In this document: one piece after another, positions 45,347 through 45,686 of the stretch
How positions within the stretch are numbered: position 1 is the stretch's first letter
How the letters are laid out: every line of letters starts with the position of its first letter
Assembly: GCA_008727115.1 (NCBI GenBank)
Contig: CP044131.1
Span: 186,001-250,000 of the forward strand
Direction: 5' to 3'
Length of the DNA stretch: 64,000 bases
DNA from: Comamonas testosteroni
GTDB taxonomy: Bacteria > Pseudomonadota > Gammaproteobacteria > Burkholderiales > Burkholderiaceae_C
Translations under genes and position numbers: made by a program
Notes under the pieces: model-generated
What the model was told of the DNA's origin: nothing
The model's database searches: none
Seen by the model: the letters and a program-made list of their open reading frames with translations, nothing else

Positions 45347-45371
45347 TGCCGGTAGAAAGCCGGCATTTTTT
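45347..45371 (+). terminator. Terminator of the PTS operon
   Basis: TGCCGG/CCGGCA stem with a 7-nt loop and six T, 75 nt after ptsI. Confidence 0.8.
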
Positions 45372-45380
45372 AGGGAATTA

Positions 45381-45411
45381 ATTGAGATTGATTCTCATTT
45401 GCTGCTATGAT
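45381..45411 (+). promoter_or_regulatory. Sigma-70 promoter overlapped by a Fur-box-like palindrome
   Basis: TTGAGA (45382-45387), 18 nt, TATGAT (45406-45411): five of six consensus bases in each hexamer. The palindrome TGAGA-TTGAT-TCTCA (45383-45397), within 45381-45399, covers the -35 and the spacer and resembles Fur sites (TGAGAATnATTCTCA type). Iron-repressed transcription to the right from about 45418 is the inference. Confidence 0.65.
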
Positions 45412-45585
45412 TCATTCCAGCATGTCACGCAGAACTCTGGTGGGGTATCCAGCGGGACATGCCTCAGTTTCATCGTGGGGCGACTCGTCAGGCCAGTTCA
45501 GCCTGCAGTCGTTTTTGCCAGCCAGCGGTTTGCCGGTTAGCCAGGCATTTTTTCTCGATGTAAACAGCAGGTTTCATTTAATTTC

Positions 45586-45627
45586 ATAGCTGCTTGCGCT
45601 TGTCTTTCAATGAATTGGGCCTGAAAT
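45586..45627 (+). repeat. Short dispersed element, copy in the Fur-linked locus
   Basis: ATAGCTGCTTGCGCTTG at 45586, then a diverged GGGCCTGAAA end. Its TAG closes the 55-codon frame. Confidence 0.7.
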
Positions 45628-45658
45628 ATATCTGAGACTAGCTAAATATCAGCGCTCT

Positions 45659-45686
45659 AAGCTCCTTATTCAGGAGCTTTATTTTT
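45659..45686 (+). terminator. Terminator of the Fur-linked locus
   Basis: AAGCTCCT/AGGAGCTT stem with a 5-nt loop, followed by TATTTTT. Confidence 0.75.

Follow-up and report, generated by a model that had tools for sequence, protein, structure and literature searches.

Predicted promoter and Fur box between ptsP and lipA

Between the converging genes ptsP and lipA of Comamonas testosteroni lies a short intergenic stretch, which raises the question of what is made from it. An initial annotation of the window (the whole 64,000-nt stretch of contig CP044131.1 analysed here) had proposed a Fur-repressed, iron-sparing small RNA (sRNA) that ends at a terminator about 250 nt downstream of its promoter. 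Our reading of the locus is built on the following features:

45272, plus strand: stop of ptsP, which converges with lipA.
45347–45371, plus strand: terminator-like stem and T-run (TGCCGG-7 nt-CCGGCA-TTTTTT), read from the sequence and without a listing in the terminator scan.
45383–45397, plus strand: predicted Fur box TGAGATTGATTCTCA, overlapping the −35 hexamer TTGAGA (45382–45387); found by promoter and palindrome scan and kept in relatives.
45406–45411, plus strand: TG-extended −10 hexamer TATGAT, found by promoter scan; its spacing from the Fur box is constant in orthologues.
45419–45553, plus strand: predicted sRNA of about 135 nt, its start placed 7–8 nt after the −10 hexamer and its end at a T-run (both ends predicted).
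45420–45462, plus strand: 5′ hairpin, supported by covariation, with the loop motif CUCUGGUGGGG at 45435–45445.
45467–45484, plus strand: near-invariant block GUUUCAUCGUGGGGCGAC, which includes the predicted seed UCGUGG (45473–45478); from alignment and covariance model.
45477–45515, plus strand: second hairpin GGGGCGAC...GUCGUUUUU, closing on a U-run, with three pairs that show two-sided changes.
45516–45553, plus strand: 3′ module of two AGCCA motifs, a weak hairpin and six T (45548–45553); from alignment and covariance model.
45768, minus strand: stop of lipA, which converges with ptsP.

Two converging operons, each with its own terminator, had been described here. The convergence was borne out, and ptsP is closed by the stem and T-run at 45347–45371, which separates it from the Fur box that starts just 3′ of it. 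The promoter that had been pointed out (TTGAGA-18-TATGAT) was found at 45382–45411 with 10/12 matches and a TG before the −10 hexamer, and it is the best of three promoter-like sites in the region, against 0.9 ± 1.0 expected. The palindrome said to cover the −35 hexamer was likewise recovered, as TGAGATTGATTCTCA, and differs from TGAGAATNATTCTCA by one mismatch. The promoter is thus predicted to be under Fur control, with a putative Fur box placed on it as in Fur-repressed sRNAs.

A predicted, conserved and structured RNA of about 135 nt

In a DNA search of related genomes, the RNA core was matched in 29 of 36 genomes of the same genus, and the Fur box was conserved alongside it. The box is nearly unchanged in the alignment, and the extended −10 hexamer follows at a near-constant distance. 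Using tblastn, we found that a copy adjoins ptsP in at least 24 Comamonas/Delftia-type genomes, Delftia acidovorans among them, and most of these copies also adjoin lipA. Joint retention of Fur box and RNA core, in orthologues as well as dispersed paralogues, lies far above chance.

Conservation of the box, the promoter and the terminator in relatives had been proposed as a check of the sRNA. The first two were indeed kept, together with the RNA core, but the terminator named for the RNA end is not the conserved one. A stem does exist at 45659–45679; however, terminator-like stems are not above chance in the region (2 vs 3.0 ± 1.8 expected). Because the block common to orthologues and paralogues stops at the T-run 45548–45553, we place the length of the RNA at about 135 nt and not about 260 nt, and a 3′ end at 45659–45679, beyond that block, was rejected. 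A covariance model of the core (R1) matches the window at 45467–45553 (1.1e-26). The sequence 3′ of 45553 enters an intergenic repeat: positions 45570–45640 belong to a genus-wide repeat. This repeat, around CATAGCTGCTTGCGCTTGTC, is partially matched about 40 times in the genome and many times in the genus.

The 5′ hairpin keeps 95% of its pairs across ten sequences, with two-sided changes at three pairs, and in a control the pairing was lost when the partner strand was slid. Its loop motif is present in most ptsP-lipA copies. In the predicted fold, the 5′ part of the seed region (45468–45475) is mostly unpaired, and the G-run is paired. The G-run is matched to the U-run by G-U pairs, which suggests that binding of the U-run, for example by Hfq, would free the G-run; the U-run, which closes the second hairpin, may be an Hfq site. 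The 3′ module at 45516–45553 is likely the terminator, and its hairpin is weak by energy. Taken together, alignment and fold describe a putative non-coding RNA that is structured, conserved and equipped with a predicted terminator of its own.

Two kinds of copy, behind hemP or alone

A family search with covariance models of the RNA core (A1, R1) gave matches in 80 of 301 genomes of the taxonomic family and in 40 of its 141 genera. By exact scan, the genera include Comamonas, Delftia, Acidovorax, Paracidovorax, Variovorax, Hydrogenophaga, Polaromonas, Pseudorhodoferax, Curvibacter, Rhodoferax, Giesbergeria and others. The genome of the window holds only two copies, the one in the window and another at 1579105–1579176 (minus strand), directly behind hemP (1579206–1579313), which has a Fur-like sequence upstream.

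Throughout the family, copies are of the same two kinds, either directly behind hemP or alone. Counting Fur boxes with up to 3 mismatches that lie no more than 120 nt upstream, we found one before 59 of 63 stand-alone copies vs none of 61 hemP-linked copies, with a mean of 0.94 and a maximum of 4 in shuffled controls. Three of the four stand-alone exceptions (L145, L163, L194) are each the second of two tandem copies behind hemP. The fourth, L190 (7090–7280), is an intact sRNA copy after an apparently truncated hemP, where the RNA may have outlived the protein gene.

Some stand-alone copies neighbour apparent iron-uptake genes, which we named by eye from the sequence. Those in L046 (3011, 4252) and L052 (2935) immediately precede a siderophore-interacting-protein-like gene that runs in their own direction, one pair lying in tandem about 1.2 kb apart, and the copy in L050 adjoins a TonB-dependent-receptor-like gene.

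A tree of the sRNAs, which is rough and has too few columns for dating the escapes from hemP, needs 13 label changes (11–15 in bootstraps), five of them forced by well-supported branches. This suggests that copies have switched several times between being linked to hemP and standing alone. Since the hemP-linked form is the more widely spread, we infer a direction from hemP-linked to stand-alone, and regard the RNA in the window as a dispersed paralogue of a hemP 3′ UTR sRNA that descends from the hemP-linked form. The members of the family form a natural series that runs from an sRNA in an mRNA 3′ UTR to free-standing genes with a regulator site of their own, which bears on the origin of sRNA genes.

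Predicted pairing with sdhC and sodB

Target prediction against iron-enzyme mRNAs, another check that the initial annotation had proposed, placed the complement of the seed at the ribosome sites of sdhC and sodB. Among the 5′ regions of iron-enzyme genes in seven genomes of the genus, sdhC carries CCACGA at the ribosome site in 7/7, giving a short pairing of 7 pairs. In most of these genomes, CCACGAGGAAA lies over the Shine-Dalgarno region of sodB and forms 10/11 pairs with UUUCAUCGUGG. The start of acnA reads CACGAUG in five of the six genomes read and CGCGAUG in the remaining one, and the acnB 5′ region is without the seed-complementary site in the genomes of the genus.

We compared 15 genera that have the RNA with 15 genomes that do not, two sets that are not phylogenetically independent. 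CACGA was present at sdhC in 13/15 vs 0/15 (p 1.8e-6, kinship ignored) and at the sodB orthologue in 12/12 vs 3/12 (p 3.4e-4, kinship ignored). As background, 339 starts contained CCACGA in 4 cases and CACGA in 11. When all 132 hexamers of the RNA were scanned, UCGUGG was the only one whose complement is enriched at both the sdhC and the sodB ribosome site: CCACGA occurs at sdhC in 91% of genomes with the RNA vs 0% of those without it, and at sodB in 86% vs 18%. The summed difference amounts to 1.58, with 0.21 for the next hexamer. Duplex energies of whole 5′ regions against shuffles proved noisy and were replaced by this hexamer test, in which the RNA-less genomes serve as the control. Genome comparison thus predicts pairing with iron-enzyme mRNAs. 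In L319, a Fur-like sequence AATGATTCTCATTT lies about 90 nt upstream of a second sod gene, a layout that would fit induction of an alternative SOD when the first is spared.

Proposed mechanism and other readings of the locus

Since the complement of UCGUGG is enriched at sdhC and sodB, we favour an RNA that is repressed by Fur and spares iron through base pairing, as RyhB, PrrF, NrrF and BrrF do. With iron present, Fur would cover the −35 hexamer and silence the RNA. When iron is short, the RNA would be produced, and UUUCAUCGUGG would base-pair with the CCACGA found at both the sdhC and the sodB ribosome site, as well as with CACGAUG at the start of acnA. Synthesis of iron-using enzymes would then be lowered, which would spare iron. 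We infer transcription, Fur binding, Hfq dependence and target repression from the sequence. The initial proposal of a Fur-repressed iron-sparing sRNA gains support from the Fur box, the covarying RNA, the lack of a conserved frame and the co-occurrence of seed and target sites. The locus very probably encodes an sRNA of about 135 nt that acts in trans, stands alone and is repressed by Fur; a paralogue of the hemP 3′ UTR sRNA, it would at low iron pair with sdhC and sodB and at the start of acnA.

The same promoter could instead drive a small protein of 55–60 aa. The single frame that had been reported does have 55 codons when read from 45422, but it has 60 when read from 45407, and two shorter TTG/ATG frames accompany it. 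This 55–60-codon frame is open in the window and partly open in the closest relatives. The start at 45407, however, falls within the −10 hexamer, and, in agreement with the initial annotation, no ribosome site was seen before the frame. A frame conserved in relatives, which had been named as evidence against an sRNA, was not found among the 28 orthologous loci: 15 have no start codon in frame after the −10 hexamer, and frame length varies from 18 to 70 codons in the remaining ones. Substitutions track base pairing, and the hemP-linked paralogues carry the RNA core without the start of the 55–60-codon frame. We therefore rejected the small-protein reading, which has very little left to recommend it. 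Even slighter is the chance that we are looking at mobile or repeated DNA with no function as RNA. Such an element would account for the presence of several copies at different sites of one genome, but the genome of the window has just two, the place between ptsP and lipA is constant in at least 24 genomes, the hairpin shows compensatory changes, and a Fur box or hemP precedes nearly every copy.

A genuine Fur-controlled sRNA could also have its main partner elsewhere, acting as a sponge for a protein or on a different set of mRNAs, and affect sdhC and sodB only slightly or indirectly. Conservation of the AGCCAGC motifs in hemP 3′ regions reaches far past the genomes that have the UCGUGG seed, and the ptsP-lipA copies preserve another G-rich loop, CUCUGGUGGGG, so that either might bind something else. 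Against this stands the co-occurrence of UCGUGG and CCACGA at both sdhC and sodB, which is unique to one of the 132 hexamers, and we consider a main action elsewhere unlikely.

Comparison with known iron-sparing sRNAs

Among the open-access papers searched, none reported an iron-sparing sRNA from Comamonadaceae (Comamonas, Delftia, Acidovorax, Variovorax, Hydrogenophaga, Polaromonas and others). The earlier remark that no equivalent is known in this family agrees with that search, but a betaproteobacterial counterpart, BrrF, is known in Burkholderia (PMC7377471). What is new here is the predicted family, its putative stand-alone Fur-driven copies, and a seed matched to predicted targets. The family supplies a seed and named targets that are testable in laboratory strains.

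PrrF1 and PrrF2 of Pseudomonas and RyhB of enterobacteria are free-standing sRNAs whose promoters are overlaid by a Fur box; they target sdh and sodB, and PrrF is present in several copies. The RNA in the window resembles them in the Fur-box-over-promoter layout, in being free-standing and in its sdh and sodB targets (here predicted), but it has another seed, and no sequence relation was found. An Rfam scan of the window gave no match to PrrF, RyhB, NrrF or any known family, and membership in a known Rfam family was rejected. NrrF of Neisseria is a betaproteobacterial, Fur-controlled sRNA that represses sdhCDAB (PMC5586341), and to that extent resembles the RNA in the window in lineage, predicted Fur control and predicted sdh target. 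A link of NrrF to hemP is not known.

The comparison with BrrF goes further. BTH_s39 (Rfam RF02692) is the homologue of BrrF, which invariably lies behind hemP and lacks its own Fur box (PMC7377471). In B. cenocepacia at low iron, sdhC, acnA, fumA and sodB fall in the wild type but not in a brrF mutant (PMC7377471). The window was without a match to RF02692 even at E ≤ 10, and the gathering score was not reached, whereas the positive control of the scan (L271) scored 118.8. Model R1, in turn, does not recover BrrF; with no match in either direction, membership in RF02692 by model was rejected.

In genome G154, which belongs to a different family of the order, BTH_s39 matches the region 3′ of hemP at 118.8 bits; this region contains GUAUUGUGGGGACC, with AGCCAGC motifs further 3′. 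Of the hemP 3′ regions from other families of the order (L243–L271), 20 of 29 contain AGCCAG two or more times in the 220 nt that follow the hemP stop, often arranged as AGCCAGCC-stem-loop-AGCCAGCC. At least two such motifs occur in 23 of 59 hemP 3′ regions overall, against a mean of 0.125 in shuffles. A hemP 3′ UTR RNA module wider than BrrF may thus exist in Betaproteobacteria.

The RNA in the window differs from BrrF in its position between ptsP and lipA, away from hemP, in its own Fur promoter and in its seed (CAUCGUGGGG, compared with GUAUUGUGGGG in BrrF). They share the link to Fur-controlled hemP, seen in many relatives of this RNA and in the other copy of its genome. By eye, both also seem to have a 5′ GUGGGG stretch followed by a hairpin and AGCCAGC motifs further on, but R1 misses BrrF. 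Its relatives are commonly placed behind hemP, and BrrF lowers sdhC, acnA and sodB at low iron (PMC7377471). We base the kinship on position and shared motifs, not on a model score: the RNA is BrrF-like, probably with a common origin via hemP, and not a member of RF02692. On balance, we lean towards a history in which a hemP 3′ UTR sRNA of the BrrF lineage repeatedly left hemP, gained a Fur promoter and spread to several loci per genome, while gains and losses of the seed went hand in hand with those of the sdhC and sodB sites across genera.
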